Assembly: GCF_000515415.1 (NCBI RefSeq)
Contig: NZ_KI911783.1
Coordinates: 6,683,831 to 6,747,830, forward strand
Length of the DNA stretch: 64,000 nt
From: Bradyrhizobium sp. WSM1417
GTDB taxonomy: Bacteria > Pseudomonadota > Alphaproteobacteria > Rhizobiales > Xanthobacteraceae
Direction of reading: 5' to 3'
Numbering within the stretch: the stretch's first letter is position 1; the number at the start of each line of letters is the position of its first letter. The notes under the pieces are model-generated. The model was given only the letters and a program-made list of their open reading frames with translations, did not search any database and had not been told where the DNA came from. Positions 37,015 to 57,020 of the stretch are shown here, piece by piece. The position numbers and the translations under genes were made by a program.

Positions 37015-37039
37015 GGAACGAACATACGTTCCCCACGTT
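37015..37039 (+). promoter_or_regulatory. EcfG-type general-stress promoter of the inositol-glycan cluster
   Basis: GGAAC at 37015-37019, 16 nt, then CGTT at 37036-37039: an exact match to the alphaproteobacterial EcfG consensus GGAAC-N16/17-CGTT. Transcription should begin near 37046, about 90 nt ahead of the ATG at 37138, and the leader would contain the tandem repeat. Confidence 0.75.
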
Positions 37040-37061
37040 CGCCGACGTACTTACGTCAACA

Positions 37062-37095
37062 CTGCAAGTCTTCAACACCTGCAAGTCTTCAACAC
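37062..37095. repeat. Two perfect tandem copies of a 17-bp unit in the ino1 leader
   Basis: CTGCAAGTCTTCAACAC occurs at 37062-37078 and again at 37079-37095. A decayed third copy (CTGCACGTCTTC) follows about 14 nt later. It lies between the predicted start of transcription and the ino1 ribosome binding site (GGAGGG near 37122). Confidence 0.8.
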
Positions 37096-37137
37096 TGCAT
37101 GCCTTAACGCTGCACGTCTTCCGGAGGGCCCAGATCA

Positions 37138-38238
37138 ATGCATTCTCGTCTTCAGGACAGGCGGCGCGTGCGCGTCGGCATCGTCGGTGTCGGCAATTGT
37201 GCGAGCTCCTTCGTTCAGGGGCTCTCCTACTACCGCGACGCCAAATCGAATGAGCCGGTGCCTGGGCTGATGAACGCCGATCTCGGCGGCTACCACATCA
37301 GCGACATTCAGGTCGCGTCGGCCTTCGACGTCCATGCCGGCAAGGTCGGACGCGACGTGGCCGAGGCGATCTTTGCAGCGCCGAACAACACGCACCGCTT
37401 CTCCGACGTCGCGCCCACCGGCGTCATGGTCCAGCGCGGCCCGGTCATGGACGGTGTCGGCCAATATCTCAAGGACGACGTTCCGATTGCGGATGTTCCC
37501 GAAGCCGACGTCTCCGAAGTGCTCGCGACGTCGCGCACGGACGTGCTTGTGTCCTATCTTCCCGTCGGTTCGCAGCGCGCGAGCGAGTTTTACGCCGCGC
37601 GCGCGATCGAGGCCGGCTGCGGCTATGTCAATTGCATCCCGGTCTTCATTGCCTCGAATCCCGACTGGCGGCGGCGTTTCGAGGATGCAGGCCTGCCGAT
37701 CGTCGGTGACGACATCAAGAGCCAGGTCGGCGCCACCATTCTGCACCGTGTGCTCGCCAATCTCTTCCGCGAACGCGGCGTGCGGCTGGACAGAACCTAC
37801 CAGCTCAATGTCGGCGGCAACACCGATTTCAAGAACATGCTCGAGCGCGAGCGGCTGACGTCAAAGAAGATCTCCAAAACCCAGGCCGTGACCAGCCAGT
37901 TCGACGTGCCCATGGATGCCGATAATATCCATGTCGGCCCGAGCGACCATGTGCCGTGGCTGACCGACCGCAAGCTGGCCTTTATCCGCCTGGAGGGTAC
38001 CACGTTCGGCGGCGTTCCCTTGAGCGCGGAAGTCAAGCTCGAGGTCTGGGACTCCCCGAACTCGGCGGGCGTCGTGATCGACGCGGTGCGCTGCGCCAAG
38101 CTCGCCATGGACCGCGGGCAGGCCGGCGCGCTGACGGGCCCCTCGAGCTATTTCATGAAGTCGCCGCCGCAGCAGTTCACGGACGAGGAAGCCGGACGGC
38201 GAACGCGCGCGTTCATCGACGACAAGGCGTATATCTGA
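37138..38238 (+). CDS. ino1: Inositol-3-phosphate synthase (actinobacterial type)
   Basis: A 366-residue NAD-dependent enzyme cyclising glucose-6-phosphate to inositol-phosphate. The Rossmann motif is [17 protein letters not shown]; the active-site regions [26 protein letters not shown] and [10 protein letters not shown] are intact, and the length fits the short bacterial form. CGGAGGG precedes the ATG. It is the first gene of a long plus-strand cluster under an EcfG-type promoter. It supplies inositol phosphate, inferred to be the core or acceptor of the cluster's product. The next gene, a phosphatase-family protein, overlaps its stop by one base. Confidence 0.94.
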
Positions 38239-38837
38239 TGGCGAAGATCATTCATCTGATCCGCCATGGGCATCATGCCCTGCTCGGCCGCACGCTCTGT
38301 GGCCGGATGAAGGGCGTCGAACTCGATGATCGCGGCTGCGAAGAAATCGCGCGATGCGCCGATACCTTCGCGCCGCCGCCGAGTACGATTCAGTCGAGCC
38401 CGCAGCGGCGCTGCATGCAGTCGGCCTGCATCCTGGCGGCGCGCTTCGGCTTGCCGGTCGAGATCGTGCCGGCACTCGACGAGCTCGACTACGGCGAATG
38501 GACCGGACTGTCGTTCGAGGCGCTCGCCCGGGACCCCCGATGGTCGCGCTGGAACGAACAACGCGGAACGAACCGTCCGCCGGGCGGCGAAAGCATGCGC
38601 TCACTCCAGAAGCGCGTCGTCGCCCATCTGGAGCAGCTGCGCAATGATCATGGCAGCGGCACCGTCGTCGTCGCCGTCAGCCATGCCGAACCGATCCGCG
38701 CGGCGCTGCTGCACTATTCCCGGAAAGAGCTCGACGACTTCCTCTCGATCGAGATCGACCCCGGCAGCGTCAGCACCCTCAGCGTGGACAATCGCGGACT
38801 CAAGATCACCGGGATTAATCAGCGGGTGCCAGCGTGA
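38238..38837 (+). CDS. Histidine-phosphatase-family protein
   Basis: A 199-residue protein of the phosphoglycerate-mutase-like superfamily. The catalytic histidine is in HLIRHGHHALLG; the second active-site histidine in VVAVSHAEPIRAAL; and ELDYGEWTGLSFE is typical of sugar-phosphate and alpha-ribazole phosphatases. The ATG at 38238 shares its A with the ino1 TGA, and the gene overlaps the next by 4 nt. The simplest role is dephosphorylation of inositol phosphate or another sugar phosphate of the cluster. The usual RHG is kept. Confidence 0.88.
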   Translation: MAKIIHLIRHGHHALLGRTLCGRMKGVELDDRGCEEIARCADTFAPPPSTIQSSPQRRCMQSACILAARFGLPVEIVPALDELDYGEWTGLSFEALARDPRWSRWNEQRGTNRPPGGESMRSLQKRVVAHLEQLRNDHGSGTVVVAVSHAEPIRAALLHYSRKELDDFLSIEIDPGSVSTLSVDNRGLKITGINQRVPA

Positions 38838-39937
38838 AGATCGTCATTTTCGGCCTGACAATTTCCTCGTCTTGGGGCAACGGTCACGCCACCTTGTGGC
38901 GAGGGCTTTGCAAGCATCTCGCGCGAGCCGGCCACAGCGTCGTCTTTTTCGAGCGCGACGTGCCCTATTACGCCGGCGCGCGGGATTTGCACGAATTGCC
39001 CGGCGGCCAATTGCGACTGTTCTCGAACTGGGACGATGTGCTTCCTGCGGCGCGCAGCGATATTCGTGATGCCGACGTCGCGATCGTGACCTCCTATTGT
39101 CCCGACGCGATCGCTGCGACGGAGCTTGTCCTGGCCGAGGGTCGTGCGGTGCCCGTGTTCTACGACCTCGACACGCCGGTCACGCTGGCGAAGCTCATGG
39201 CCGGCGAGGCCGTTCCCTATATCGGGCCACGTGGTTTGCGGGATTTCGCCCTGGTCCTGAGCTTCACCGGCGGTCCACGCATTTGCAACGAATTTCGCGA
39301 CAGGCTCGGCGCCGCCAATGTTCGCCCACTCTACGGCCATGTCGATACGGACACCCATCGACCGGTGCCGTCGCAGCCACATTACCGTGCGGATCTGTCC
39401 TATCTCGGCACTTATTCTCAGGATCGCCAGCGCGCGCTCGAGGCTCTGTTCGTCGAACCCGCACGCAGCAGGCAGGATCGGCGCTTCCTGATCGGGGGTG
39501 CACAATACCCGGAAGATTTTCCCTGGTCGCCAAACATCTACTTCGTGCAGCACTTGCCGCCGTCGGAGCACGCGTCGTTCTTTGCGTCGTCTCGGTTGAC
39601 ACTCAACGTCACGCGCCGGGCCATGGCGGAGATGGGCTGGTGCCCCTCCGGCCGCCTGTTCGAAGCCGCTGCCTGTAAGGCCCCCCTGCTCAGCGACGAC
39701 TGGCCGGGACTGGATGAATTCTTTGTACCCGGCCAGGAGATCCTGATCGCACGCGATGCGAAGGACACGCTGGCTGCGTTGACGATCGCCGACGCCGAGC
39801 TTCAGCACATTGCCGAACGCGCATATGAACGGACCATGGATCAGCACACATCCGACAAGCGCTCAGCCGAACTGATTTCGCTGCTCGAGCAGACGGCATC
39901 CCTCGGCGCGCGCCGACAGCAACCCGAGGAGGCCTGA
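38834..39937 (+). CDS. CgeB-like GT-B glycosyltransferase, copy A
   Basis: A 367-residue cytoplasmic glycosyltransferase starting at a GTG that overlaps the phosphatase stop (GTGA). N-terminal phrase [20 protein letters not shown]; central YLGTYSQDRQRALE; C-terminal donor-site half [25 protein letters not shown]. The fold follows the CgeB/spore-maturation GT-B family (Glyco_trans_1_2 type). It is closely related to the gene at 50630-51754 and more distantly to 48418 and 49545. Donor and acceptor are unknown; its place beside ino1 suggests inositol or a sugar phosphate derivative as acceptor. Confidence 0.82.
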   Translation: MKIVIFGLTISSSWGNGHATLWRGLCKHLARAGHSVVFFERDVPYYAGARDLHELPGGQLRLFSNWDDVLPAARSDIRDADVAIVTSYCPDAIAATELVLAEGRAVPVFYDLDTPVTLAKLMAGEAVPYIGPRGLRDFALVLSFTGGPRICNEFRDRLGAANVRPLYGHVDTDTHRPVPSQPHYRADLSYLGTYSQDRQRALEALFVEPARSRQDRRFLIGGAQYPEDFPWSPNIYFVQHLPPSEHASFFASSRLTLNVTRRAMAEMGWCPSGRLFEAAACKAPLLSDDWPGLDEFFVPGQEILIARDAKDTLAALTIADAELQHIAERAYERTMDQHTSDKRSAELISLLEQTASLGARRQQPEEA

Positions 39938-39939
39938 TC

Positions 39940-40749
39940 ATGTGGGGCATCGTTCCGGCCGCGGGCCGCGGCAGCCGCATCCAGCCGCTCGCCTTCTCCA
40001 AGGAATTGCTTCCGGTCGGAAGCCAACGGGACGACGGCATCGACCGTCCGTGCGCCGTCTCCGAATATCTGCTGGAACGGCTGATCCTTGGAGGCGCCGA
40101 CAAGATCTGCTTCGTGATCTCCCCCGGCAAATCGGACATTCTCGAATATTTCGGCGATCATTATGGCAGCGCCCAGCTCGCCTATGTCGTGCAGCCCGAT
40201 GCGCCGGGGCTCTGCGATGCCGTGTTCAGGGCGGGCACGGTGGTTGGCCACGACGAAGACATTCTGGTCGGACTTCCGGATACCGTCTGGTTCCCAAAGA
40301 CGGCCCTGCAGGCGTTGCCGGCCGCTGACCTGTCGTTTCTGCTGTTTCCGGTCGAACACCCCGAGTTCTTCGATGCCGTCGTGCTCGACGGCGATCGCGT
40401 CACGGAGATTCAGGTCAAGCAGCCGGATGCGGCGTCGAAATGGATATGGGGCGCCTTCAAGATGTCCGGCAACGGATTTCGCGAGCTCCAGTCGCTGTGG
40501 ACGAAGCGCGACCGCCGCGATGAATATTTCGGGACGCTCGTCAACGCCTACATCGCGGCCGGCGGCCAAGGTCTCGGCGTCAAGGCCGGCGAATCCTATG
40601 TCGACGTCGGCACCATCGACGGCTACCGGACGGCAATGGCGTTGCTCGCGGAGAGCTCCCCTGGGAACGGACGCTCTCGACTGCTGGCCGGCGGTTCGCC
40701 GGATGCAGCCCGCCCGGCCCACATAATGAACAATGGAGTGACCGCATGA
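39940..40749 (+). CDS. Sugar-1-phosphate nucleotidyltransferase
   Basis: A 269-residue enzyme of the NTP_transferase family. The signature VPAAGRGSRIQPLAFSKELL fits GxGxR...PK with K; VQPDAPGLCDAV and GLPDTVWFP hold the metal-binding region; and YVDVGTIDGYRTAM is the C-terminal sugar site. It should make an NDP-sugar for the cluster's transferases. It starts 2 nt after the preceding stop and overlaps the methyltransferase by 4 nt. The base and sugar cannot be told by eye; glucose-1-phosphate thymidylyl- or uridylyltransferase is closest. Confidence 0.87.
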   Translation: MWGIVPAAGRGSRIQPLAFSKELLPVGSQRDDGIDRPCAVSEYLLERLILGGADKICFVISPGKSDILEYFGDHYGSAQLAYVVQPDAPGLCDAVFRAGTVVGHDEDILVGLPDTVWFPKTALQALPAADLSFLLFPVEHPEFFDAVVLDGDRVTEIQVKQPDAASKWIWGAFKMSGNGFRELQSLWTKRDRRDEYFGTLVNAYIAAGGQGLGVKAGESYVDVGTIDGYRTAMALLAESSPGNGRSRLLAGGSPDAARPAHIMNNGVTA

Positions 40750-41513
40750 GCAGAGGCGCCCTCTCCCGCGAGGAAATCCGCCAGCGCGTCGATGCGCTCG
40801 GACCATGGTTTCACAATCTGGATCTGAACGGCGTGCCGACAGCGCCTTCACACTTTCTCGGCGACTATCCCAACGTGAAATGGCGCCGCTTCTCCGGAAT
40901 CATCCCGGACCGTCTCGAAGGCAAGACCGTGCTCGATATCGGGTGCAATGCCGGCTTCTACGCCATGGAGATGAAGCGGCGCGGCGCCGAGCGCGTCCTC
41001 GGCCTGGACACCGACGACGAATATCTCGCACAAGCCCGTTTCGCGGCCGAGGTGAACGGGCTCAGGATCGAATTCCGCAAGATGTCAGCCTACGACGTCG
41101 GACAGCTGCGCGAAAAGTTCGATCTCGTGATCTTCATGGGGGTGCTCTATCACCTGCGGCACCCTCTGCTGGCACTCGACCTGATCCATGAGCACGTGGC
41201 CGGCGATCTCCTGCTGTTCCAGTCGATGCAGCGCGGCGACAGCCGCGTGGATCCCCTCGACAAGAACTACGACTTCTGGACCACCGATCAGTTCGATTCT
41301 CCGGGCTATCCAAAGCTGCACTTCATCGAGAACAAATATGCCGACGACCCCACCAATTGGTGGGTGCCGAACCGCGCCTGCGCCGAAGCCATGCTGCGCA
41401 GCGCCGGCTTTGCCATCGCAGCGCATCCGGAAGAGGAAGTCTATCTCTGCAAGCGGGTGACAAGGCCGCAGGCGGAAGGTCCGGTTTATCCGTCGCGGGA
41501 GACCGGCCGATGA
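40746..41513 (+). CDS. SAM-dependent methyltransferase (TIGR04290-like)
   Basis: A 255-residue class-I methyltransferase. Motif I is VLDIGCNAGFYAMEMKRRGA, the acidic loop is LGLDTDDEYLAQA and the post-motif is LVIFMGVLYHLRHPLLALD, which resembles tRNA-uridine carboxymethyltransferase (CmoB-like) and sugar O-methyltransferases. I recall a family (TIGR04290) with this N-terminus found beside the B12-radical SAM family TIGR04295, which also occurs in this cluster. It probably methylates a glycan or inositol hydroxyl. It overlaps both neighbours by 4 nt. Confidence 0.85.
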   Translation: MSRGALSREEIRQRVDALGPWFHNLDLNGVPTAPSHFLGDYPNVKWRRFSGIIPDRLEGKTVLDIGCNAGFYAMEMKRRGAERVLGLDTDDEYLAQARFAAEVNGLRIEFRKMSAYDVGQLREKFDLVIFMGVLYHLRHPLLALDLIHEHVAGDLLLFQSMQRGDSRVDPLDKNYDFWTTDQFDSPGYPKLHFIENKYADDPTNWWVPNRACAEAMLRSAGFAIAAHPEEEVYLCKRVTRPQAEGPVYPSRETGR

Positions 41514-42463
41514 TCGAAGCCGCCAAGATCTGGAACGAGCCCAATAACAAGTCACACTGGGACATCCTGATCGATCCGGACTGGACCATGTTCGCGAGCC
41601 TGGCGCTCGCTGCCGGAAAGGCGATCCGCAGCGCGCATCCCACACTCCCGCGCGTGCTCGGCGGCATGTCGCCAATCGATCCGTCCTTCCTGCGCAACAT
41701 GCAGGCGCGCGGCGTGCTCGATCATGTCGATGCCGTCGCCGTGCACGGCTTTCCGCTCGACTGGAACTTGTGGCAGATCGCGGAATGGCCGGCCAAGATC
41801 GACGAGATCAAGGCGGTCACCTCGCTGCCGGTCTGGGTCACTGAGGTGGGAGTCTCGTCCTTCGGTGCCGAGGAGGTGCAGGCCTGGGGACTGACGCGGA
41901 CCGCCGAGCTCTTGATTGGCCGGGCGCCGCGAATTCACTGGTACAGCCTCTACGATCTTCCTTCGAGCTGGGAGGCGACCACGCGGCACAAGGAGGCTGA
42001 AGGCTCTTCCTACTACCGGCATTTTCACATGGGCCTGCTACGCGAGGACGGAACGCCGAAAGCCTCGGCGGACCTGTTCGCCCAGTATGCACCTGCGATG
42101 GGGCTGTGCCAGTGGTTTCACTTCGAGGACCACCGCCTCGACGACGCCGTGCGCTGGATGCGCCGGCTCGGCGTGCAGCATCTCAGGACCGGCCTGTCCT
42201 GGGCCGACAGCCTCCGTCCCAATGCGCTCGCCTGGTTCGATCGGCAGATGGACGCGCTGGCCGAGTTTCAGGTCACCGTGACCTTCTGCTTCACCCCGGA
42301 ACATCGGGGTATCGAGCCTCATCACACCAGCCCGCCGCTCGACGTCAACGAGTTCGCGGACTTCTGCGCCCAGATGGTCGAACGCTATTGCGCGAAAACC
42401 GGGCTCGCGCCGTCCGCAGCGTCTTCGCGCCCGGCCATCTCGGAGCCGACATGCGTGCCGTGA
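41510..42463 (+). CDS. Glycoside-hydrolase-like protein with an apparently circularly permuted barrel
   Basis: A 317-residue protein similar to GH39/GH5-type beta-xylosidases. It begins with [14 protein letters not shown] (the acid/base NEP motif, Glu10), continues to [12 protein letters not shown] (nucleophile Glu112) and HWYSLYDLP, and only then reaches [16 protein letters not shown] (residues 222-237) and [11 protein letters not shown] (257-267), elements that normally come before NEP. The order is therefore beta4-8 followed by beta1-3. Its ATG overlaps the methyltransferase stop, and an upstream frame lies inside that gene. It may trim or transglycosylate a pentoside within the pathway; no signal peptide is present. 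Confidence 0.78.
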
Positions 42464-43653
42464 TCCTGGTGATGGACTCCGTCGGGATCGGCGCCGCGCC
42501 CGATGCCGTCAATTACGGCGACGAGGGTGCCGATACCGTCGGCCACATTGCTGAGATGTGCATGGCCGGCAATGCCGACGGACCACGTCGGGAGGGGCCG
42601 CTTCGGCTACCTAGTCTGGTTGCGCTCGGTCTTGGCCAGGCTTGCCGTCTCGCCACCGGGCGCGTACCGCCGGGGCTCGATGGCCGTCCTGAGCAGGCGC
42701 GATTTGGCTGCGCGAGCGAGATCTCCAAAGGCAAGGACACGCCATCCGGTCATTGGGAGATCGCCGGCGTGCCGGTGCCGTTCGACTGGGGCTATTTTCC
42801 AAGAACCAAGCCGTGCTTCCCGCGCGATTTGATGGAGAGCCTGTGCGAACAGGCTCGATTGCCCGGCATCCTCGGGAACTGTCACGCCTCCGGCACCGAG
42901 ATCATCGCCGAATTCGGCGAGCGTCACATCAGAACGGGCGAACCGATCTGCTATACGTCGGCCGACAGCGTGTTTCAGGTCGCAGCGCACGAGGAGACGT
43001 TCGGGCTCGAACGCCTCTATGAGGTCTGCCGCGTTGCCCGCCGACTGGTCGATCCCCTCAACATCGGCCGCGTCATCGCACGGCCGTTCGTCGGCACGTC
43101 GGCCGGTGATTTCAAGCGTACACCGCATAGGAAGGACTTTTCCGTTCCGCCGCCGGAACGGACGATCCTCGATCTTGCCGAAAGCGCAGGCCGTGACATC
43201 GTTACGATCGGCAAGATCGACGACATCTTCGCCCATCGCGGGACTGGGAGGAACCTGCGCGGCGATGGCAACCATGCGCTGTTCGATGCCACGCTCGATG
43301 GGCTGGCCTCTCTCGCCGAGGGCGGGATGTTGTTCGCCAACTTCATCGATTTCGACACGCTGTACGGCCATCGCCGAGATGTGGCGGGCTATGCAGCGGC
43401 GCTCGAAGCCTTCGATGCCCGCGTTCCGGATCTGCTGAACCGCCTGCGTGAGGATGATTTCCTGATCATCACGGCCGATCACGGTTGCGACCCGACCTGG
43501 AGCGGCACCGATCACACGCGGGAGCAGGTGCCGATTTTGGCGTGGAGCACGTCAACTTCTCCGATTGGCAAGCGCGCCGGATTTGCGGACATCGGCGCGA
43601 CGGTCGCCAGGCATCTCGAACTGCAGGCGCCGGTTCATGGCGCGCGTTTCTAG
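42451..43653 (+). CDS. deoB: Phosphopentomutase
   Basis: A 400-residue alkaline-phosphatase-superfamily mutase interconverting pentose-1- and pentose-5-phosphates. Metal and phosphorylation sites: [47 protein letters not shown]. The ATG at 42451 has GGAG upstream and lies inside the last 13 nt of the glycosidase-like gene; the frame's earlier ATG at 42106 is overrun. No deoA, deoC or deoD is nearby, so it probably serves glycan synthesis by making a pentose-1-phosphate for the nucleotidyltransferase, rather than nucleoside catabolism. Confidence 0.93.
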
Positions 43654-43723
43654 CTCGGTGCACCGGCTGATTCACCTGGGTTATTGATCCAGGTTAGAGA
43701 AATATTCGTTTGTAGGTTTCGCA

Positions 43724-43748
43724 GGAACGAACATTCCTTGCATCGCTT
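43724..43748 (+). promoter_or_regulatory. Weak EcfG-type promoter candidate before the second half of the cluster
   Basis: GGAAC at 43724-43728, 16 nt, then GCTT. The -10 differs from CGTT in its first two bases. The -35 context AGGAACGAACAT is identical to that of the ino1 promoter, which favours a real but divergent copy. It is about 115 nt ahead of the ATG at 43862. Confidence 0.4.
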
Positions 43749-43861
43749 CTACTTCCAAATGTGACTGGCGCGCCGGTCGTCCGACCAGAACAGCAGCGCG
43801 CTTTCATTCTCATCACGGATTGATCCCGCAGGATCGGTCTCACGGCGGCACGGAGCGGTGA

Positions 43862-44974
43862 ATGACGCGAGTATTGATCACTGGAGGGGCGGGATTCATC
43901 GGATCGCATGCAGCCGACGCGCTGCTGGCGGCCGGCTATGAAGTCCGCCTGCTCGACAATCTCTCGCCGCAGGTCCACGGAGGCAACCGCCAGCGCCCCG
44001 CCTATCTTGCCAAAGACGCGGAGCTCGTCGTCGGTGACGTCACCGACGCTCTCGCGGTCGATCATGCGTTGCGCGGCACCGACATGGTCCTGCATCTCGC
44101 ATCAGCAGTCGGCGTCGGCCAGAGCATGTACGACATCGAACCCTATGTCAGGACCAACGAGCTCGGCACCGCCGTGCTGCTGCAGACACTGTCCAAGCGC
44201 CCGGTCGCGCGGCTCGTGGTGGCCTCGTCCATGAGCATTTACGGCGAGGGTCTCTACCGGAGCGCCGATCAGAGCGTGGTCGCCTGCGAGGAGCGGGCAG
44301 TCGAGCAGCTTCGCCGCGGCGATTGGGAGCTGCGCGATGCAGCCGGCAACCCGCTCGATCCCGTCCCGACGCCGGAGACAAAGCAGCCTTCGCTGAGCTC
44401 GATCTATGCGCTCAACAAATATGCGCAGGAGCGCATGTGCCTGATCACGGGCAAGGCTTATGGCATTCCGACGGTGGCGCTACGCTTCTTCAACGCGTTC
44501 GGGCCACGTCAGGCCCTGTCCAATCCGTATACCGGCGTGCTGGCCATCTTTGCCGCCCGGCTGCTCAACGGCCGCCCTCCCCTCGTCTTCGAGGACGGCC
44601 GGCAGCGCCGCGACTTCGTCCATGTGCATGACGTCGCCCGCGCCTGCCGGATGGCACTGGAGGCGGAGCACGCGCAGGACGTCTTCAACGTCGGTTCCGG
44701 CCAGAGTCGCACCATTCTATCGGTCGCGGAGGATCTGGCCGAAGTCATGGGGCGCCGCGACATTGCGCCCGAGCTGACGCGGAAGTATCGCGCCGGGGAT
44801 ATCCGGCACTGCTTCGCCGACATGGGAAAATCCCGCGACGTGCTCGGCTTCGAGCCTCGCGTCGCATTCAGGGATGGGCTCGAAGAGCTGGCGGAATATC
44901 TCGCCGACCAGATCGCTGACGATCAGGCGGAGCGAGCCACCAGGGAGCTGCAGCAACGAGGATTGGTCGCGTGA
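43862..44974 (+). CDS. NAD-dependent sugar epimerase/dehydratase (SDR), first of two
   Basis: A 370-residue extended SDR. The nucleotide-binding motif is [18 protein letters not shown]; the catalytic serines and YxxxK are in VASSMSIYGEG and SSIYALNKYAQE; RFFNAFGPRQALSNPYTGV and RDFVHVHDVARA are typical of NDP-sugar epimerases (UDP-glucose 4-epimerase or dTDP-rhamnose 4-epimerase type). GGAGCGG precedes the ATG. It opens the second block of the cluster after a 208-bp gap and overlaps the next SDR by one base. The exact sugar is not determinable by eye. Confidence 0.87.
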   Translation: MTRVLITGGAGFIGSHAADALLAAGYEVRLLDNLSPQVHGGNRQRPAYLAKDAELVVGDVTDALAVDHALRGTDMVLHLASAVGVGQSMYDIEPYVRTNELGTAVLLQTLSKRPVARLVVASSMSIYGEGLYRSADQSVVACEERAVEQLRRGDWELRDAAGNPLDPVPTPETKQPSLSSIYALNKYAQERMCLITGKAYGIPTVALRFFNAFGPRQALSNPYTGVLAIFAARLLNGRPPLVFEDGRQRRDFVHVHDVARACRMALEAEHAQDVFNVGSGQSRTILSVAEDLAEVMGRRDIAPELTRKYRAGDIRHCFADMGKSRDVLGFEPRVAFRDGLEELAEYLADQIADDQAERATRELQQRGLVA

Positions 44975-46038
44975 TGAGTGAACGAGACAACAGACCCGTC
45001 CTGATCACCGGCGGCTGCGGGTTTATCGGCTGCAACCTCGCCGACCGCCTGGCGGAGCGCGGCGAGCCGGTGCTGATCCTGGATAACCTCGCCCGCGCCG
45101 GCGTGCGGGAGAATGCGCAGTGGCTGAAGTCCCGGCATGGCGACCGGGTCACAATCACCGTGGCCGACATTCGCGAGCCGATCCCGGTGATCGACGCGGT
45201 ACGCGAAGCCCGCGCCGTGCTGCATTTGGCCGCCCAGGTCGCCGTCACCGACAGCGTGAGCGATCCGGCCGCCGATTTCGAGATCAACGCGCGGGGCACA
45301 CTGAACGTGCTCGAAGCTGTGCGCCTCCACAACAACGCCGCGCCGATCGTGTTCGCCTCGACCAACAAGGTCTACGGACGCCTGATCGATGATGGCGACA
45401 TCGCGCTCACCGGCCGCCGCTACACGCCGACAAGCGGCCTGCTCGCCGCCGGCATCTCGGAAAATGCGCCGCTCGACTTCTACAGCCCCTATGGATGCTC
45501 CAAGGGAACGGCGGACCAATACGTTCACGACTACGCGCGGGTCTACGGCCTGCAGACCGTGGTGATGCGCATGAGCTGTATCTATGGCCCCCGTCAATTC
45601 GGCACGGAGGATCAGGGCTGGATCGCGCATTTCCTGCTGAGCGCCATCCGCAGCAAGGAGCTGACGATCTATGGCGATGGCCATCAGGTCCGCGATGCGC
45701 TTCACGTCTCCGACGCGGCCTCGGCCTGGCTCGCCGTGCTCGACGGAATCGCACTCGCCCGTGGACGCGTCTTCAACCTTGGTGGCGGTCCGGCCAACGC
45801 GATCAGTCTGCTGGAATTGATCGACCGCATCACCGATCTGACCGGCCGCAAGGTGGCCTATCGCTTTGCCGATTGGAGGCCCGGTGATCAGCCCTGGTAC
45901 GTGACCGACACGCGCGCCCTCTCCAGCGCGCTCGGCTGGGCGCCTCAGGTTTCGTTCGCAGACGGCCTCCGATCCCTTCACACCTGGCTGGACGGCCGCT
46001 TCGGATCGTCACAGGACAACCGCGAGGCGCTGGCATGA
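44974..46038 (+). CDS. NAD-dependent sugar epimerase (SDR), second
   Basis: A 354-residue extended SDR (a GTG at 44971 overlapping the preceding stop as GTGA is an alternative start). Motifs: VLITGGCGFIGCNLADRL, FASTNKVYG and SPYGCSKGTADQYVHDYAR with the catalytic YGCSK, and SCIYGPRQFGTEDQGWIAHF. The last two are typical of CDP-tyvelose/CDP-paratose 2-epimerase-like proteins. It overlaps the radical SAM gene by 4 nt. It probably alters the stereochemistry at C2 or C4 of the NDP-sugar donor. Confidence 0.86.
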   Translation: MSERDNRPVLITGGCGFIGCNLADRLAERGEPVLILDNLARAGVRENAQWLKSRHGDRVTITVADIREPIPVIDAVREARAVLHLAAQVAVTDSVSDPAADFEINARGTLNVLEAVRLHNNAAPIVFASTNKVYGRLIDDGDIALTGRRYTPTSGLLAAGISENAPLDFYSPYGCSKGTADQYVHDYARVYGLQTVVMRMSCIYGPRQFGTEDQGWIAHFLLSAIRSKELTIYGDGHQVRDALHVSDAASAWLAVLDGIALARGRVFNLGGGPANAISLLELIDRITDLTGRKVAYRFADWRPGDQPWYVTDTRALSSALGWAPQVSFADGLRSLHTWLDGRFGSSQDNREALA

Positions 46039-47321
46039 CGCGTGTTGCCCTCATCAACCCCAATTGGGATTTTGGCGGCAGCATCTATTTTGGCTGCCGA
46101 TCCCCTCACCTTCCGCTCGAACTCGGGATCTCCGAGCATTACCTGAAGGCGGCCGGGCACAAGACACTGCTGCTCGACGCCCACATGTTCGATCTTTCCC
46201 TCGCCGAGATCGAAGCCGAGCTGCGCGCGTTCGGCCCCGACCAGATCGTCATCACGACGGCGCCGACCTATCTGTTCTGGCGCTGTGCTCCTCCCGAGCT
46301 CCGCGTTCCGCAGGAGCTCGCGATGGCGGTGCGCGACTTGGCTCCGATCCTCGTCGCGGTGGGCCCCCACGGCTCGACCGTGCCAAAAGCGGCGATTCGA
46401 AAGCTCGGCACCGACATCGTCGTGATGGGCGAGTGCGAGGCGTCCTTACTGCGTCTTGCCAATGGCGAGCGGGACTTTCCGGGTCTGTGCTTTGCCGACG
46501 GCGCATCGCTCCGTGTCAATGGCGGCCCGCAGGCCGTCGCGTTCAAGGATCAGCCGCCGCTGGACTGGCCGGAGGAGATGATCCGGCGGCATCACCATCA
46601 CCACCACCGCTTCGAAGCCGAGCCGCAGGCGCCAGGCGCCGAGGTCGAATCATCCAGGGGATGTCCGTACAACTGCACCTTCTGCGCCAAGGAGAACTTC
46701 CGCAACGCCTACCGCAAGCGGCCTGCCTCCATCGTTCTCGAAGAGATCGACGGCCTGCGTCATCAGGGCATCGAATATGTCTATTTCATCGACGAGATTT
46801 TCCTTCCCAACGCGGAACTGCTGGAAGGGATGACCACACGCGGGCTGAAGTTCGGAGTGCAGACCCGCATCGACCTCTGGAAGCCGGACATGCTGGCTCT
46901 GCTCGGCCGCGCCGGCTGCGTCTCGATTGAAGCCGGCATCGAGAGCCTCACGGTCGAGGGCCGCGCCGCGCTCGCCAAGAACTGCAAGATGACGACCGAC
47001 CAGCTTGCCGAACGGCTGGTCGAAGCGCGCCGTCACGTTCCTTTCGTGCAGGCCAATTTGATCGAAGTCCCCGAGGACGATGACCCCGTCGTGCAGCGCT
47101 GGCGCCGCACCATGCAGGATGCCGGCATCTGGGCCAACGATCCGGTCCCGCTGTATCCCTATCCGGGCTCGCCGGATTATCGAAAGCTGTGGGGCGAGCC
47201 CGACGACTTCGCGTGGGAACGCGCGCACCGGCACTATCTCGCGATGTTCGACCAGTTCAGCGACGTGCAGAACGATCGCCCGGTCCCGCTAGAGACTCTC
47301 GAACTGCAGGTGGCATCATGA
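46035..47321 (+). CDS. B12-binding radical SAM enzyme (TIGR04295-like)
   Basis: A 428-residue protein. The N-terminal B12-binding-like domain (about 1-160) includes INPNWDFGGSIYFGCRSPHLPLELG. The radical SAM domain begins at about residue 208 with SSRGCPYNCTFC, the CxxxCxxC that binds the [4Fe-4S] cluster, followed by RKRPASIVLEEID and YFIDEIFLPN. A natural run of six histidines (46590-46607) lies just before it. Such enzymes do C-methylation or rearrangements on unactivated carbon, so a C-methyl branch on a sugar or the cyclitol is plausible. It overlaps both neighbours by 4 nt. Confidence 0.88.
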   Translation: MTRVALINPNWDFGGSIYFGCRSPHLPLELGISEHYLKAAGHKTLLLDAHMFDLSLAEIEAELRAFGPDQIVITTAPTYLFWRCAPPELRVPQELAMAVRDLAPILVAVGPHGSTVPKAAIRKLGTDIVVMGECEASLLRLANGERDFPGLCFADGASLRVNGGPQAVAFKDQPPLDWPEEMIRRHHHHHHRFEAEPQAPGAEVESSRGCPYNCTFCAKENFRNAYRKRPASIVLEEIDGLRHQGIEYVYFIDEIFLPNAELLEGMTTRGLKFGVQTRIDLWKPDMLALLGRAGCVSIEAGIESLTVEGRAALAKNCKMTTDQLAERLVEARRHVPFVQANLIEVPEDDDPVVQRWRRTMQDAGIWANDPVPLYPYPGSPDYRKLWGEPDDFAWERAHRHYLAMFDQFSDVQNDRPVPLETLELQVAS

Positions 47322-48421
47322 GCCGCAGTTCGCAGCTCAGGATCCTGATGACGACCGATACCGTCGGAGGTGTCTGGACCTACTCGTCATCTCTAGCTTC
47401 GTCCCTTGCTGCGAAGGGCGCCGACGTCACCCTGGTGACGATGGGTCCGCGCGCGCGCGCCGGCCACCTTGCGATGCTCCGTGGCTCGCGGGTCCGCCTG
47501 ATCGAAACGGACCTTGCACTCGAGTGGCAGGATCCGGAAGGACAAGATCTGTCCCAGGCCAGGCGCGTCCTTGCGAAGCTCGAAGCCGGAATCAGGCCTG
47601 ACCTCGTTCACCTCAATAGTTTTCGCGAGGCGAACTTCGCCTGGCGCGCTCCAGTGGTGGTCGTCGCGCACTCCTGCGTCAACTCCTGGGGGCTCGCCTG
47701 CCGCGATACGAGCTGGCTCGGCGAACCGAAATGGCGCGGCTACACCGAACGGGTGACAGCCGCACTCGACACGGCACAGGCCTGGGTTTGTCCCAGCCAG
47801 TCCTTCCACGATGACATTGCGGAAATCTATCAGCCTCGCTCACGCGGCGTCGTGATCTGGAATGGAATTGGCCCTCAGGATCCCGCGGGACGGAAGCAAG
47901 ACATGATCTTTGCGGCGGGCCGGCTTTGGGACCGCGCCAAGAACATCGAGGTCCTGGCGGCTGCAGCGTCTGGGCTGGACTGGCCCGTTCAGGTCGCCGG
48001 GCCGGCGGATGAGTGCCCTTCGGCTTCCGTCACCTGGCTCGGGCAGTTGTCTCACGAAGCCATGCGCGCGCACTTGCAGCACGCCGCCATCTTCGCCAGC
48101 CCCGCGCTCTATGAGCCGTTCGGCCTCTCCGTCCTGGAAGCCGCGGCGGCGGGATGTGCTCTCATCCTGTCCGACATTCCCACTTTCAAGGAATTATGGA
48201 GCGGGGCCGCGCTGTTCGTCGATCCCACCGACAGCAAGGCGCTGCATCGAGCACTCGCAGATCTGTGCACCGACGATCGCGAGCGGGTGCGGCTGCAACG
48301 TGCCGCCTTTGAGCATTCCCTGACCTACTCGTTGACCCGGACCACGAGCGCCTATCTCAGCCTCTACCGGGAGCTGCTTGCCGTCCATCACGCGCCCGCC
48401 CCCATGGAGGTCCGCGCATGA
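47318..48421 (+). CDS. GT4-family glycosyltransferase
   Basis: A 367-residue GT-B glycosyltransferase. N-terminal LMTTDTVGGVWTYSSSLASSL is the glycine-rich start of GT4 enzymes, and ASPALYEPFGLSVLEAAAAGCALIL is the EX7E-like donor-binding motif of retaining GT4 enzymes. The middle FAAGRLWDRAKN marks the domain linker. The ATG at 47318 overlaps the radical SAM stop; an earlier start at 47189 is overrun. It probably uses an NDP-hexose or NDP-pentose made by the cluster. It differs in family from the four CgeB-like transferases. Confidence 0.88.
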   Translation: MSRSSQLRILMTTDTVGGVWTYSSSLASSLAAKGADVTLVTMGPRARAGHLAMLRGSRVRLIETDLALEWQDPEGQDLSQARRVLAKLEAGIRPDLVHLNSFREANFAWRAPVVVVAHSCVNSWGLACRDTSWLGEPKWRGYTERVTAALDTAQAWVCPSQSFHDDIAEIYQPRSRGVVIWNGIGPQDPAGRKQDMIFAAGRLWDRAKNIEVLAAAASGLDWPVQVAGPADECPSASVTWLGQLSHEAMRAHLQHAAIFASPALYEPFGLSVLEAAAAGCALILSDIPTFKELWSGAALFVDPTDSKALHRALADLCTDDRERVRLQRAAFEHSLTYSLTRTTSAYLSLYRELLAVHHAPAPMEVRA

Positions 48422-49548
48422 AATGCGCTCTGTTCTATCACGCGTTCACGTCCTGCTGGAACAACGGCAATGCCCATTTCCTGCGCGGTTATGCCCGCGA
48501 ACTTCACGCGCTCGGTCACGAGGTCGTCGTGTTCGAGCCGATCGACGGTTGGAGCCGATTGAATGCGATCCGCGAGGGTGGCAGTCAGACGATGGAGGAT
48601 ATTCCAGCGCTGTTTCCCGGCATCGGCATCCGCCGTTACGACGCCTCCCTTGATCTCGGTGAAGCCTTGCACGGCGCCGATCTCGTCGTCGTCCACGAAT
48701 GGAATTCACCTGATCTGATCGCGGACATCGGATCGAAACGGGCTCACGGCGCTCCCTTCACGCTGCTGTTCCACGATACCCATCATCGCGCCGTCAGCGC
48801 ACCGGACGAACTTGCGCAGTTCGACCTCGACGGCTTCGACGGTGTGCTCGCCTTCGGCGAGGTCCTTCGTCAAATCTATCTGAAGCTCGGCTGGGCCGAC
48901 CGGGCCTTCACCTGGCACGAGGCGGCCGACATCGCCCTGTACCATCCGCTGCCGCATGTCGAGCGCACCGACGATGTCGTCTGGATCGGCAATTGGGGCG
49001 ACGGCGAACGCAGCGCCGAGCTCAACGAATTTCTGGTCGAACCCGTGGCCGAGCTGAAGCTGGGCGCGGGCGTCTATGGCGTCCGCTATTCGGACGCAGC
49101 CCTCGCGACCATTCAGGCGGCAGGCATTCGGTATGGCGGCTGGCTGCCCGCGCACTGGGCTCCCATTGCTTTCGCCGGCGCACGCGCGACTGTCCACGTT
49201 CCCCGCGGCCCCTATGTCCGCCTGCTTCCGGGCATTCCGACCATTCGTGTCTTCGAGGCGATGGCGTGCGGCATTCCACTGGTCTCGGCCCCCTGGTCGG
49301 ATGCGGAAGGCCTGTTCCCGGAAGGTGCCTATCTCAGCGCCTCCGACGGCACCGAAATGAAACGGGCGCTTCGTGCACTGCTCGATGACCGGGAGTTGTG
49401 GTCCGCCACGGTGGAGACCGGACTCCGGACCATCAAGGAGCGTCACACCTGCCGTCACCGGGCGGAGCAGCTTGTCGGCATCGTGCAGGACCTCCGGGCC
49501 TCAGGCCACGCCACCCAGCCCCTGCGATATATCGGAGCCTCCGCATGA
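48418..49548 (+). CDS. CgeB-like GT-B glycosyltransferase, copy B
   Basis: A 376-residue protein. N-terminal LFYHAFTSCWNNGNAHFLRGYARELHALGHEV corresponds to the SSWGNGHAT start of the other copies; IPTIRVFEAMACGIPLVSAPW is the donor-site motif. ERHTCRHRAEQL near the end matches the HTSDxRA tails of its relatives. It is coupled to its neighbours by ATGA overlaps. It probably adds one sugar residue in order with copies A, C and D. Confidence 0.82.
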   Translation: MKCALFYHAFTSCWNNGNAHFLRGYARELHALGHEVVVFEPIDGWSRLNAIREGGSQTMEDIPALFPGIGIRRYDASLDLGEALHGADLVVVHEWNSPDLIADIGSKRAHGAPFTLLFHDTHHRAVSAPDELAQFDLDGFDGVLAFGEVLRQIYLKLGWADRAFTWHEAADIALYHPLPHVERTDDVVWIGNWGDGERSAELNEFLVEPVAELKLGAGVYGVRYSDAALATIQAAGIRYGGWLPAHWAPIAFAGARATVHVPRGPYVRLLPGIPTIRVFEAMACGIPLVSAPWSDAEGLFPEGAYLSASDGTEMKRALRALLDDRELWSATVETGLRTIKERHTCRHRAEQLVGIVQDLRASGHATQPLRYIGASA

Positions 49549-50633
49549 AGATCTGCTTCTTCGGATCCAGCCTCGTCTCATCCTACTGGAACGGTGCCGC
49601 CACCTATTACCGCGGCATGCTGAAGGAGATTGCGGCCCTCGGCCACGACGTCACATTCTTCGAGCCCGATGCCTTCGAGCGCCAGGCCCATCGCGACATC
49701 GACGATCCCGATTGGGCGAAGGTGGTGGTCTACGCCGCAACGCCTGACGGCTGGCGAAGCTCGCTTGAGGAAGCCGCCCGCTCGGCCGACATGCTGGTCA
49801 AGGCCAGCGGCGTCGGCGTCTTCGATCAGGAGCTGGAGAACGCGGTCGCCGACGTCCCGTCGAATGCAATGCGCATCTACTGGGACGTCGACGCCCCCGC
49901 GACGCTGGAGTCGGTGGCGGACAATCCAGACCATCATCTGCGCCATGCGATCCGGTCTTATGACATGGTTTTGACTTATGGCGGCGGCGATGCCGTCGTA
50001 TCCGCTTATCGCGGTATCGGCGCGCGAGACTGCGTGCCGATCTACAATGCGCTCGACCCCGCCACGCACTTTCCGGCGCCGCCCAATGCGCGCTTCACGT
50101 GCGATCTGAGCTTGCTGGCAAACCGCCTCCCTGATCGCGAGCAGCGCGTCGAGCGGTTCTTCATTGATGTCGCACGCCGATTGCCGGACAAGACATTCGT
50201 GCTCGGTGGATCGGGGTGGGACTCCAAAGACACGCCAACTAATCTGCATAAGGTCGGGCATGTCGGAACCGGCGATCACAACGCGTTCTTCGGCTCCGGT
50301 CTGGCCACGCTGAACGTCAATCGCGACAGCATGGCGCGCTACGGTTTCTCGCCGCCGACACGCGTGTTCGAAGCCATCGGTGCCGGAGCCTGCCTGATCA
50401 CCGACCAGTGGGACGGCATCGATCATTTTCTCGAGCCAGATCGCGAGGTGCTGGTGGCCGCGAGCGGGGCGGAGGTCGCAGAGCATCTTTCCGCACTGCG
50501 CCCCGACCGGGCTCAGGCGATCGCAAGGCGCGCTCGTGCGCGCATTCTGAGCCATCACACCTACCGGCAGCGCGCGCGCCAGTTCAACGATCTCTTTGCC
50601 GCAAGCAGTTCGCGAATCGAGGCAGCAGAATGA
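49545..50633 (+). CDS. CgeB-like GT-B glycosyltransferase, copy C
   Basis: A 362-residue protein. N-terminal FFGSSLVSSYWNGAATYYRGMLKEIAALGHDVTFFEPDAFE; C-terminal PPTRVFEAIGAGACLITDQWDGIDHFLEPDREVLVAA is the donor-binding region; SHHTYRQRARQF is the family tail. The ATG at 49545 overlaps the preceding gene, and the earlier start at 49398 is overrun. I recall this sequence type annotated as a glycosyltransferase of the spore-maturation (CgeB) class. Confidence 0.83.
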   Translation: MKICFFGSSLVSSYWNGAATYYRGMLKEIAALGHDVTFFEPDAFERQAHRDIDDPDWAKVVVYAATPDGWRSSLEEAARSADMLVKASGVGVFDQELENAVADVPSNAMRIYWDVDAPATLESVADNPDHHLRHAIRSYDMVLTYGGGDAVVSAYRGIGARDCVPIYNALDPATHFPAPPNARFTCDLSLLANRLPDREQRVERFFIDVARRLPDKTFVLGGSGWDSKDTPTNLHKVGHVGTGDHNAFFGSGLATLNVNRDSMARYGFSPPTRVFEAIGAGACLITDQWDGIDHFLEPDREVLVAASGAEVAEHLSALRPDRAQAIARRARARILSHHTYRQRARQFNDLFAASSSRIEAAE

Positions 50634-51754
50634 ACCTCAATATCGTCGTCGTCGGTCTTTCGGTCACTTCGTCCTGGGGCAATGGTCATGCCACGACCTA
50701 TCGTGCCCTGATCGAAGCCCTGGCACGACGAGGTCACCACGTAACATTTCTCGAACGCGACGTCCCCTGGTATCGCGAGCATCGTGATCTTGCCAAGCCT
50801 TCCGGTTGGACCGTCGAGCTTTATCAATCCTTGAAGGACATCCCGCAGCGCTTCGGCAAGATGATCCGGGATGCCGATCTGGTGGTCATCGGCTCCTACG
50901 TGCCCGACGGCATCGCGATCTCCGAATGGATCACGACCCACGCCCGCGGGATTACCGCCTTCTACGACATCGACACGCCGGTCACGCTTGCGAAGCTCGA
51001 GCAGGGCCTGGACTATCTTTCCGCGGCGATGATCCCGCGCTTCGACCTCTATTTGTCCTTTGCCGGCGGCCCGGTGCCCGGCATGATCGAGGAGAACTAT
51101 GGTAGTCCGCTGGCTCGGGTGCTGTATTGCAGTGCCGACACCGACATCTACGCACCGCAACGCGCGGAGAAGAAGTGGGCACTGGGCTATCTCGGAACCT
51201 ACAGCGAGGACCGGCAGCCGGTTCTGGAGCAGTTGCTGCTCGCCCCCGCTCGCACTCTGTCACGCGAGCAATTCGTCGTCGCCGGCGCGCAATATCCCGA
51301 TGAGGTGGTCTGGCCCGCCAATGTCGCCCGGATCGAGCACCTTACACCCAAACATCATCCGGAGTTTTACGCAGGGCAACGCTTTACGCTAAACGCCACC
51401 CGTGCCGACATGCGCGCACTCGGCTTCTCGCCCAGCGTTCGGCTGTTCGAAGCGGCCGCGTGCGGCACGCCCGTGATCTCGGACCGGTGGCCTGGAATCG
51501 AGACCGTCTTCGAGCCTTCCCGGGAAATCCTGCTCGCATCGGACCCCCGCGACGTCGTGGAGATCCTGCGCGACATGCCCGAGGAGCAAAGGCGCACGAT
51601 CGCGGAGAACGCACGGCGCCGCGTTCTGGCCGACCACACCTCCGACCATCGCGCCCGGCAAGTGGAGACCTACTACGCCGAGGCATCGGTCCGTCGCCGC
51701 CGGAAAACCCCGCAACTTCCCGCCTCGCGTCCCATGCAGGTCGCTCAAATCTGA
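50630..51754 (+). CDS. CgeB-like GT-B glycosyltransferase, copy D
   Basis: A 374-residue protein closely matching copy [22 protein letters not shown] against [20 protein letters not shown], and [13 protein letters not shown] against ERDVPYYAGARDL. The middle [17 protein letters not shown] and the donor region [20 protein letters not shown] are also shared. The C-terminus is basic ([10 protein letters not shown]). It follows copy C with an ATGA overlap and precedes the decarboxylase-like SDR by 11 nt. Copies A and D probably arose by duplication and may transfer similar sugars. Confidence 0.84.
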
Positions 51755-51765
51755 AAGGCAGCACC

Positions 51766-52833
51766 ATGACACTTCAGACCCGCATCAACGCGTCCCGCCG
51801 CTCTCCCACCGTTCTGGTGGCCGGCGGCGCCGGCTTCATCGGATCGCATCTCTGCGACGCGCTTTTGCAACGCGGCCACACCGTGATCTGCCTCGACAAC
51901 CTGTTTACGGGAAGGATCGATAACATCCGGCCGCTGCTCAATCATCCGAACTTTCGCTTCATCGAACATGACGTGCGCGATCCCGTCGAGATCGAGGGCG
52001 ACATCGACCGGATCTACAGTCTCGCCTGCCCGGCGTCGCCCCGTCACTATCAGAAAGATCCGGTCGGCACGATGAAGACGTGCGTGCTCGGCACCATCAA
52101 CATGCTGGAGCTCGCGCAGCGGAAAGGCGCCCGGGTGCTGCAGGCATCGACCAGCGAGGTCTACGGCGATCCGGAGGTCCATCCCCAGCCGGAAACCTAT
52201 CTCGGCAACGTCAATCCGATCGGGCCCCGGGCTTGCTACGACGAAGGCAAGCGAGCCGCGGAAACGCTGATGTTCGATTACCATCGCATGTACGGGGTTG
52301 AAATCAAGGTCGCGCGCATCTTCAACACCTATGGACCCCGGATGCTGGAGAACGACGGGCGCGTGGTCTCCAACTTCATCGTGCAGGCGCTTCGGGGCGA
52401 GCCGATCACGATCTATGGAGGCGGTACGCAGACCAGGAGCTTCTGCTTCGTCGACGATCTCGTGCGCGGCCTCCAGCTGCTCATGGAGAGTCCATCGTCG
52501 GTCACCGGACCCTGCAATCTGGGTAATCCGCACGAGGTTACCATCGAGGCGATCGCGCGCGACGTGCTGGCGTATACGGAATCAGCCTCCCCGCTCCGGT
52601 TCGAGGAGCTGCCGAAGGACGATCCGAAGCGCCGCAAGCCCGTCATCGACACGGCCGTGAAGGCGTTGGGGTGGCGCCCGCGCGTGGCGCTCAAGGATGG
52701 CCTTCGCGCGACCATCGCCTATTTTGCCATGCGCATGGCCGGGGAAGCGCCGGCACTCGTTCCGGCCATTGCACCGCGCAGGAGCGGACGTACCGGGGCA
52801 CGCGGCCAGCTGACGATCGCCGATCGGCAGTAA
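51766..52833 (+). CDS. UDP-glucuronate decarboxylase-like SDR (UDP-xylose synthase)
   Basis: A 355-residue extended [22 protein letters not shown] is the NAD site; [33 protein letters not shown] and [13 protein letters not shown] (catalytic Tyr and Lys) are characteristic of UDP-glucuronate decarboxylases; [20 protein letters not shown] follows. It would give UDP-xylose, a pentose donor that matches the beta-xylosidase-like gene and phosphopentomutase. AAAGG precedes the ATG at 51766. It is the last gene of the cluster; the C-terminal 40 residues are Ala/Arg-rich and not family-like. Confidence 0.88.
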
Positions 52834-53249: not shown

Positions 53250-53747
53250 TCAGGCCGCCTGACGCTGATGCGACAGATATTCCATTGTCACCTTCTCGAC
53301 ATTTGAGTCGATCCAGGCGGCCATGCGCTGCTCCTCCTTCAGCGATGTCTCGAGAGGCTCCTTGGCCTCCGCGAAACCAGCGGCGCCACAAAGGGCGAGC
53401 AGAGACTTGTAGGCAGCGATCTCGAAATTCTCGAAGGCATTGTTGGCGAACGTATTCTTGAGAATCTCGTCTCCGGCAACCGAGTGTGCCATCGCTTGCA
53501 TGTTCGCCATCATGGATTGCGTCGTATCCTTGAGGCTGGAGGTACTCTCCCCGCAGGCTTCCAGACATCTCTCCAGCCGCTTCAGCTGCTCGTTGGTCTC
53601 TTGAAGGTGGGCCGCAACCTTTGCCTTGACTTCGGGATATTCGTCCAGCCGTTCCGACTGGCGTTCCATCAACTCTCGCGCCTGCACTTCCATCGCATGC
53701 GCATTGCGTAGTCCAACCACGAATGTATCGCGGGCTGCGTTCGTCAT
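53250..53747 (-). CDS. DUF892/YciE-type ferritin-like protein
   Basis: A 165-residue all-helical protein of the DUF892 (YciE/YciF) ferritin-like family. Carboxylate and histidine positions appear in LRNAHAMEVQARELMERQ, AHLQETNEQLKRLERCLE, FENFEIAAYKSLLALC and KEEQRMAAWIDSNVEKVTMEYL. The family is general-stress inducible and thought to bind a di-metal centre. An EcfG-type promoter (GGAAC-N16-GGTT) is at 53783-53807 and a strong terminator follows, so it is a single-gene transcript divergent from nuoB. Confidence 0.9.
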   Translation of the reverse strand: MTNAARDTFVVGLRNAHAMEVQARELMERQSERLDEYPEVKAKVAAHLQETNEQLKRLERCLEACGESTSSLKDTTQSMMANMQAMAHSVAGDEILKNTFANNAFENFEIAAYKSLLALCGAAGFAEAKEPLETSLKEEQRMAAWIDSNVEKVTMEYLSHQRQAA

Positions 53748-53782
53748 CTCATATTCTCCATTTCACGGGCCTTGTTGCCGCC

Positions 53783-57015: not shown

Positions 57016-57020
57016 GACGT

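Follow-up and report, generated by a model that had tools for sequence, protein, structure and literature searches.

A probable general-stress operon of Bradyrhizobium sp. WSM1417 with a predicted circularly permuted, PslG-like glycosidase

Genes of the operon and their distribution

The window analysed here is a stretch of 64,000 nucleotides, positions 6683831-6747830 of the 8.05 Mb one-contig genome of Bradyrhizobium sp. WSM1417. It carries an operon of fifteen genes, all on the + strand (37138-52833), that begins with ino1, for myo-inositol-3-phosphate synthase, and further encodes a histidine-phosphatase family protein (hisP), five glycosyltransferases (GT1-GT5), a nucleotidyltransferase (NTP), a methyltransferase (MT), a glycosidase (GH), a phosphopentomutase (ppm), two epimerases (epiA, epiB), a B12-binding radical S-adenosylmethionine (SAM) enzyme (rSAM) and a UDP-xylose synthase (UXS) (Table 1). 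A preliminary description, made from the sequence of the window, had reported a same-strand cluster of overlapping genes, and this was borne out: 11 of the 14 junctions overlap, by 1-4 nt (13 nt for GH/ppm when the first ATG is taken as the ppm start), and the remaining gaps are 2, 11 and 208 nt.

The rSAM protein, 98% identical to its nearest named relatives, from Bradyrhizobium, is assigned to TIGR04295 by a score above the cut-off and the presence of the CxxxCxxC motif (CPYNCTFC). MT likewise exceeds the TIGR04290 cut-off, as do the methyltransferases of L082, L092 and L116, loci with the fused form of the glycosidase described below; its nearest solved structures are ToxA, CmoB-type enzymes and EvdMO1. 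TIGR04290 and TIGR04295 are NCBIfam hypothetical equivalogs with no function in the name, and the literature search found no paper naming either, nor, among the matches listed, any paper devoted by its title to this cluster. What is described here beyond these two families are two gene modules, a stress promoter and a permuted glycosidase. Although relatives of rSAM were found in 327 stretches in a scan of one genome per species, the two named families still have no assigned product.

The preliminary description had named the two families as co-occurring and had proposed a survey of ino1, TIGR04290 and TIGR04295. In 289 genomes of the class Alphaproteobacteria (cut-offs: TIGR04295, E <= 1e-100; TIGR04290, E <= 1e-50; GH, E <= 1e-20; Ino1, E <= 1e-50), TIGR04295 was present in 13, TIGR04290 in 14, namely the same 13 and G196 (83% complete), and the glycosidase was found in 12, all of the 13 except G130 (82% complete). 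Fisher tests of co-occurrence, which ignore relatedness, gave p of about 1e-21 and 2e-20. Thus the two families do occur together, but Ino1, present in 25 of the 289 genomes, accompanied only 6 of the 13 with TIGR04295. In a sample of the phylum, TIGR04295 was found in 10 of 398 genomes, all of this class; one named metagenome-assembled genome that bears it (L075) is filed under Acidobacteriota. Nine plasmid records carry TIGR04295. Two strains each have two different rSAM copies, Bradyrhizobium sp. 164 (L035, L037) and Bradyrhizobium sp. 195 (plasmids NZ_CP082162 and NZ_CP082163), which is a sign of mobility.

For gene order, the best 80 of the 327 stretches were kept, so the set of relatives leans to Bradyrhizobium; genes were called with a simple codon-composition script, some wrong-strand calls being included. 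When the fifteen proteins were mapped on these loci, the operon resolved into two separable modules, epiA-epiB-rSAM-GT2-GT5-(UXS) and ino1-hisP-(GT1-NTP)-MT-GH-(ppm). Nitrobacteraceae have both arranged as in the window. The ino1 block is inverted and adjoins the other block in Belnapia, Dankookia and Azospirillum picis, and lies downstream in those Methylobacterium loci that show it. Twelve further genomes were picked because their rSAM locus had no visible ino1; GH was present in all twelve and ino1 lay elsewhere in seven, in five of which it headed the same block, ino1-(hisP)-(GT1-NTP)-MT-GH-(ppm). Of 70 loci that have MT and ino1 (a count that takes in L123), 57 carry GT1 together with NTP and 13 lack the pair, one of the 13 being a duplicate (L126 is on the same contig as L096); no locus had one gene without the other. 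GT1-NTP is an optional cassette.

Table 1. Features of the operon, with window coordinates and the matches behind each assignment
Feature	Position	Strand	Basis or remark
EcfG (general stress response) promoter motif, GGAAC-N16-CGTT	37015..37039	+	98 nt upstream of ino1
ino1, myo-inositol-3-phosphate synthase	37138..38238	+	PF01658 120.9 bits; TIGR03450 522.1 bits (mycothiol cut-off 638)
hisP, histidine-phosphatase family	38238..38837	+	PF00300 145.6 bits; RHG motif
GT1, PF13524 glycosyltransferase	38834..39937	+	PF13524; optional cassette with NTP
NTP, sugar-phosphate nucleotidyltransferase family	39940..40749	+	PF00483 34.8 bits
MT, TIGR04290 methyltransferase	40746..41513	+	376.7 bits, over cut-off 300
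GH, circularly permuted PslG-like clan GH-A glycosidase (predicted)	41510..42463	+	Glu10 (acid/base) and Glu112 (nucleophile) conserved
ppm, phosphopentomutase (DeoB)	42451..43653	+	PRK05362 514.3 bits, cut-off 256
epiA, SDR nucleotide-sugar epimerase (GalE/UXS-like)	43862..44974	+	
epiB, CDP-tyvelose 2-epimerase-like SDR	44971..46038	+	9rl0 E 3e-83; 1orr E 3e-80
rSAM, TIGR04295 B12-binding radical SAM enzyme	46035..47321	+	711.3 bits, cut-off 400; CPYNCTFC at residue 210
GT2, GT4-type glycosyltransferase	47318..48421	+	PF00534/PF13439
GT3, PF13524 glycosyltransferase	48418..49548	+	
GT4, PF13524 glycosyltransferase	49545..50633	+	
GT5, PF13524 glycosyltransferase	50630..51754	+	42% identity to GT1
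UXS, UDP-glucuronate decarboxylase (UDP-xylose synthase)	51766..52833	+	Solved 4gll: E 2e-112, 379.2 bits

The permuted glycosidase, its fused counterpart and inositol

The most unusual part of the locus is the glycosidase. Its strands run in the order beta4-beta8 and then beta1-beta3, compared with the linear beta1 to beta8 of standard clan GH-A enzymes, so GH is a permuted relative rather than a standard GH39 member. Positions 3-164 of the profile of the permuted family match residues 132-301 of PslG (E 1e-7), and the unpermuted sister, which in other genomes is fused to epiB, matches PslG both in sequence (E 7e-9) and by Foldseek (E 6e-15). As read from its sequence, GH is a natural circular permutant of a PslG-like clan GH-A glycosidase, and the replacement of a fused domain by the permuted form is the new element here. 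To our knowledge no earlier natural circular permutant of clan GH-A has been described.

Glu10 and Glu112, the predicted acid/base and nucleophile by analogy with clan GH-A, were invariant in all 30 permuted sequences aligned (the window and 29 of 72 loci). The catalytic glutamates were also kept in 9 of 10 fused sequences, an alignment that held 10 of the 12 unpermuted sequences, L118 and the near-identical L121 being left out. These residues suggest a retaining beta-glycosidase; a point to the contrary is P0014, a fused relative from another phylum and one of four database relatives examined, in which Lys replaces the acid/base Glu. The permuted protein starts at strand 4, with no space for a signal peptide, and the fusion partner of the other form is an NAD-dependent epimerase; for these reasons the two forms appear to be cytosolic.

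Could GH be a hydrolase with a scavenging or housekeeping role that only happens to lie in the operon, its rearrangement meaningless for the pathway? Many database entries name its relatives beta-xylosidase, and a permutation can be neutral, but three observations make this very unlikely, 1) in the class survey the GH family was confined to radical SAM genomes (12/12), 2) of all cluster proteins GH is on average the closest to its window counterpart, with a mean identity of 74.3% over 29 loci outside the Nitrobacteraceae group (duplicate removed), exceeding MT in 27 of 29 loci and Ino1 in 20 of 25, and 3) the protein is fused to EpiB elsewhere.

PslG (PDB 5bx9, 4zn2) belongs to the Psl exopolysaccharide cluster, in which it is an endo-beta-glucanase (PMC11912335, in the part available). 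GH differs from it in being permuted, and both forms of the present family look cytosolic, one of them joined to an epimerase, in loci with no Psl genes. A search for circular permutation in glycoside hydrolases returned, among the matches listed, the GH70 glucansucrases, whose barrel is permuted relative to GH13 in the order alpha3-beta4...beta8-beta1...beta3 (PMC11046441, in the part available). The cut is nearly identical in GH, beta4...beta8-beta1...beta3-alpha3, but GH70 differs in clan, sugar chemistry, location and size, and the permutation is an independent event. Another paper from that search has no permuted hydrolase of its own to offer and does no more than cite work on a lectin.

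A quick tree was built from 48 glycosidase sequences, comprising 21 permuted, 10 unpermuted and 17 of 40 database relatives, without L118 and a degenerate domain from Skermanella. Because all 21 permuted rows fell on one side of a long branch with SH-aLRT support of 100, the tree fits a single origin of the permuted form. The fused form is probably the older, since Coleofasciculus and Chthoniobacterales, too, have named fused relatives, and Bacteroidota a partial one. On the best quick rSAM tree, made from the window and 51 hand-chosen loci (four were of unassigned GH state, L075 and L088 being found permuted later), the state changed between stand-alone and fused five times, two of the changes being forced by branches with SH-aLRT >=95. 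Both forms were present in two examined genomes. In one (L071/L113) the two are intact; in the other, a Skermanella (L070/L112), the fused domain carries deletions and no longer has either catalytic glutamate (NEP and TE-G). Since the states swap on the rSAM tree and the redundant Skermanella fused copy has decayed, the two forms probably do the same job, and the tree and the decay together support displacement of the fused form by the permuted one. GH thus offers a natural experiment in protein evolution, with one permuted clade, a replaced fused domain and a degenerate intermediate. The broader proposition is that a stress-induced intracellular glycan pathway relies on a (trans)glycosidase of clan GH-A that works in the cytosol and comes in two forms able to stand in for each other, a fusion to a nucleotide-sugar 2-epimerase and a circular permutant of single origin, cut near the GH70 site, that has repeatedly displaced it, with Skermanella as the decaying intermediate; we would put this, tentatively, at slightly less than an even bet.

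The glycosidase form was also linked to inositol. Ino1 goes with the permuted form: taking the class survey and the twelve picked genomes together, it was present in 12 of 14 genomes with the permuted form and in none of the 10 whose only glycosidase is fused. The class survey gave 5/6 permuted and 0/6 fused genomes (Fisher p 0.015, three of the six fused genomes being from one genus), and in the twelve picked genomes 7/8 and 0/4. Two genomes, G206 and G359, speak against the association, having the permuted GH without Ino1. An earlier Fisher count (10/11 and 0/10) was withdrawn because five of its permuted genomes had been sampled through ino1.

The preliminary description had taken inositol as the opening step, on the logic of mycothiol and of inositol glycosides. 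Neither the inositol opening as stated nor the mycothiol logic was supported. Because all 10 fused-only genomes carry rSAM but no Ino1, inositol is not a universal first step; it is an add-on, whose module lay elsewhere in five of the twelve picked genomes, and an inositol-first reading would apply to one variant. An inositol-based, mycothiol-like pathway to a low-molecular-weight thiol is barely credible: Ino1 does score 522 bits with the mycothiol INO1 model and GT2 gives a weak MshA match, but both are far under the curated cut-offs (522.1 against 638 bits for TIGR03450; 41.2 against 462.5 bits for TIGR03449), no other Msh model matched any of the fifteen genes, and the same 10 genomes have the radical SAM core but lack Ino1.

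Promoter motif and stress-linked neighbours

The consensus of EcfG-type promoters is GAAC-N16,17-C/GGTT in the available part of PMC4814048; the motif count used GGAAC-N16,17-C/GGTT, after the same source. The site at 37015 is of the EcfG type. A lone site is not rare, six being found in the 64 kb against 4.3 expected. The motif was present upstream of ino1 in 42 of 42 loci of the Nitrobacteraceae group and upstream of epiA in none of them. Outside that group (L126, which duplicates L096, is in these denominators) it preceded ino1 in 9 of 21 loci where ino1 leads and in 0 of 8 where ino1 is operon-internal, and preceded epiA in 12 of 42 loci where epiA leads and in 5 of 5 where it stands behind the ino1 module. 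The background rate was 80/5244 and 86/6254 windows (1.4-1.5%), and a variant count (other spacing, CGTT only) gave 46/59 and 12/78.

NepR is encoded in the genome. The preliminary proposal of stress control is supported, the motif being conserved, NepR present and genes of stress-linked kinds lying in the flanks, and the operon is probably switched on by general stress. Some of the counts weigh against this: outside the Nitrobacteraceae group 12 of the 21 ino1 genes and 30 of the 42 epiA genes that lead have no motif; the strict motif is missing in the Belnapia loci and in L080, L083, L088 and L093 of the five Methylobacterium-type loci; and the 42 loci of the Nitrobacteraceae group come from close relatives.

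In the window and its close relatives, though not in more distant Bradyrhizobium, a palindrome (GGAACG-AACATA-CGTTCC, 37015-37032) overlaps the EcfG site. The region downstream of the operon (53250-63535) holds genes that we take to be stress-linked, namely those for a DUF892 protein (53250-53747), a Mn-catalase (56081-56965) and a patatin (58948-59919) and SIR2-like, NUDIX, DUF2243 and DUF4142 genes. Further EcfG-type sites lie just before the DUF892 gene (53783-53807, - strand) and before a NuoB-like gene (53898-53922, + strand). That gene (PF01058, 53973-54557) and one for a 49-kDa NuoD-like protein (PF00346, 57287-58525) are isolated, no other nuo gene having been noticed in the list of window open reading frames. 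The word "inositol" did not turn up in a term search of the main text of two stress papers, on B. diazoefficiens (2021) and M. extorquens (2016).

A cytosolic glycan as the proposed product

The preliminary description had listed no Wzx, Wzy, initiating membrane transferase or ABC exporter in the cluster, and this held: family profiles matched no flippase, polymerase, ABC exporter or membrane (initiating) transferase among the fifteen proteins. Hydropathy revealed no convincing transmembrane segment in any of them, the highest Kyte-Doolittle 19-residue mean being 1.62, in GT2. No exporter family was matched by Pfam among 13 flank proteins between 34.7 and 63.5 kb of the window (54584-55456 and genes before 34.7 kb fell outside the scan); ABC-type genes at about 5.6 and 22.7 kb, more than 13 kb upstream, were importer-like when read by eye. 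In the relatives, 148 of 160 flanking proteins were assigned to 135 families, the commonest being SDR (6 proteins), topoisomerase IB (6), Crp-type regulators (5), DUF892 (4) and PIG-L (3), and no export, transport, resistance or efflux family was among the 25 commonest, the set inspected; the other 110 families have at most two members each. The low hydropathy maximum and these flanks support a soluble, cytosolic pathway, as had been proposed. On the other side, single flanks have a sub-threshold ABC-membrane match (L072) or a sodium/proton exchanger (L092), and export by unlinked genes could occur.

The reading that we favour, with a probability of about 0.58, is that this general-stress operon builds a soluble, methylated hetero-oligosaccharide, or a small glycoside, in the cytosol. 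The most likely form of the product, which is unproven, is a xylose-containing hetero-oligosaccharide made under stress and trimmed or primed by the cytosolic GH. Nucleotide sugars would come from EpiA, the C2-epimerase-like EpiB and UXS (UDP-xylose), the chain would be assembled by GT2-GT5, and MT and the B12-radical SAM enzyme would methylate it. The Ino1-HisP pair, where present, would contribute inositol, used as the acceptor or as an end unit; the GT1-NTP(-Ppm) cassette, likewise optional, would add another sugar that may be a pentose. GH would meet the glycan in the cytosol and trim, recycle or prime it in the manner of MmpH (below), and the finished compound would protect the cell under stress. 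The supply of UDP-xylose and inositol phosphate and the methylation are predicted from known family functions, and two earlier suggestions gained support here, a pentose donor (UXS, 379 bits to a solved UDP-glucuronate decarboxylase) and methylation of the product. What we infer is that the product is a cytosolic oligosaccharide, that it protects the cell, and that GH trims or primes it. Since ppm is the sole phosphopentomutase found in this genome, our guess is that it supplies pentose-1-phosphate to the NTP-GT1 cassette. Given the tie to stress and the split into core and add-on, the product should be findable by comparing the metabolites of deletion mutants.

The methylmannose polysaccharide (MMP) of mycobacteria is intracellular. 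Its cluster, as described in the available part of PMC9883506, resembles the present one: it is small and combines a glycosyltransferase and a methyltransferase with a glycosidase, the endomannosidase MmpH, which cleaves the product of the cluster to give primers for new chains. MMP differs in being an actinobacterial homopolymer of methylmannose, MmpH is an alpha-endomannosidase, and neither Ino1 nor UXS nor a radical SAM enzyme is mentioned in the abstract. Self-recycling by MmpH is the nearest working analogy for the role of GH, and is offered as an analogy only.

It is also conceivable that the genes make a precursor or side chain of a surface glycan, an O-antigen or exopolysaccharide, exported by unlinked housekeeping Wzx/Wzy/ABC systems. 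Nucleotide-sugar enzymes with several glycosyltransferases are generally typical of such loci, the closest solved relative of GH comes from an exopolysaccharide cluster, and the patchy distribution (6 of 60 relatives over the cut-off) and plasmid copies resemble O-antigen loci. We nevertheless consider it unlikely, since the cluster has no initiating membrane transferase or exporter and none appears in the 25 commonest flanking families, the precursor would be cleaved before export by a GH that sits in the cytosol and keeps its catalytic residues, and the core gene set is kept across several families of Alphaproteobacteria, unlike variable O-antigen loci.

That the cluster makes a small natural product resembling inositol or an aminocyclitol, or the head group of a glycolipid, in place of a protectant oligosaccharide is decidedly unlikely. 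The pairing of a B12-radical SAM enzyme with a methyltransferase that has EvdMO1 among its nearest solved relatives would suit such a compound, as would PIG-L, which lies beside the ino1 module in L098 and makes up 3 of the 148 flanking proteins, and the GT4-type and GNAT genes beside that module in L110. Against it, the fifteen genes include none for an aminotransferase and no acyl or lipid-carrier gene, neither resistance nor efflux is represented in the 25 commonest flanking families, and the promoter motif is that of general stress.

A PIG-L deacetylase gene, identified by profile, adjoins the ino1 module at L098:369-1151; the stretch L110:15010-18079 also has one beside that module, identified by its sequence start, there together with the GT4-type glycosyltransferase and the GNAT-type acetyltransferase. 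These neighbourhoods are possibly a further tailoring cassette. DNA topoisomerase IB genes were found within or beside the glycan cluster at L117:5388-6401, L119:12016-13038 and L077:2992-4161, those of L119 and L077 by profile scan and that of L117 by its sequence start.

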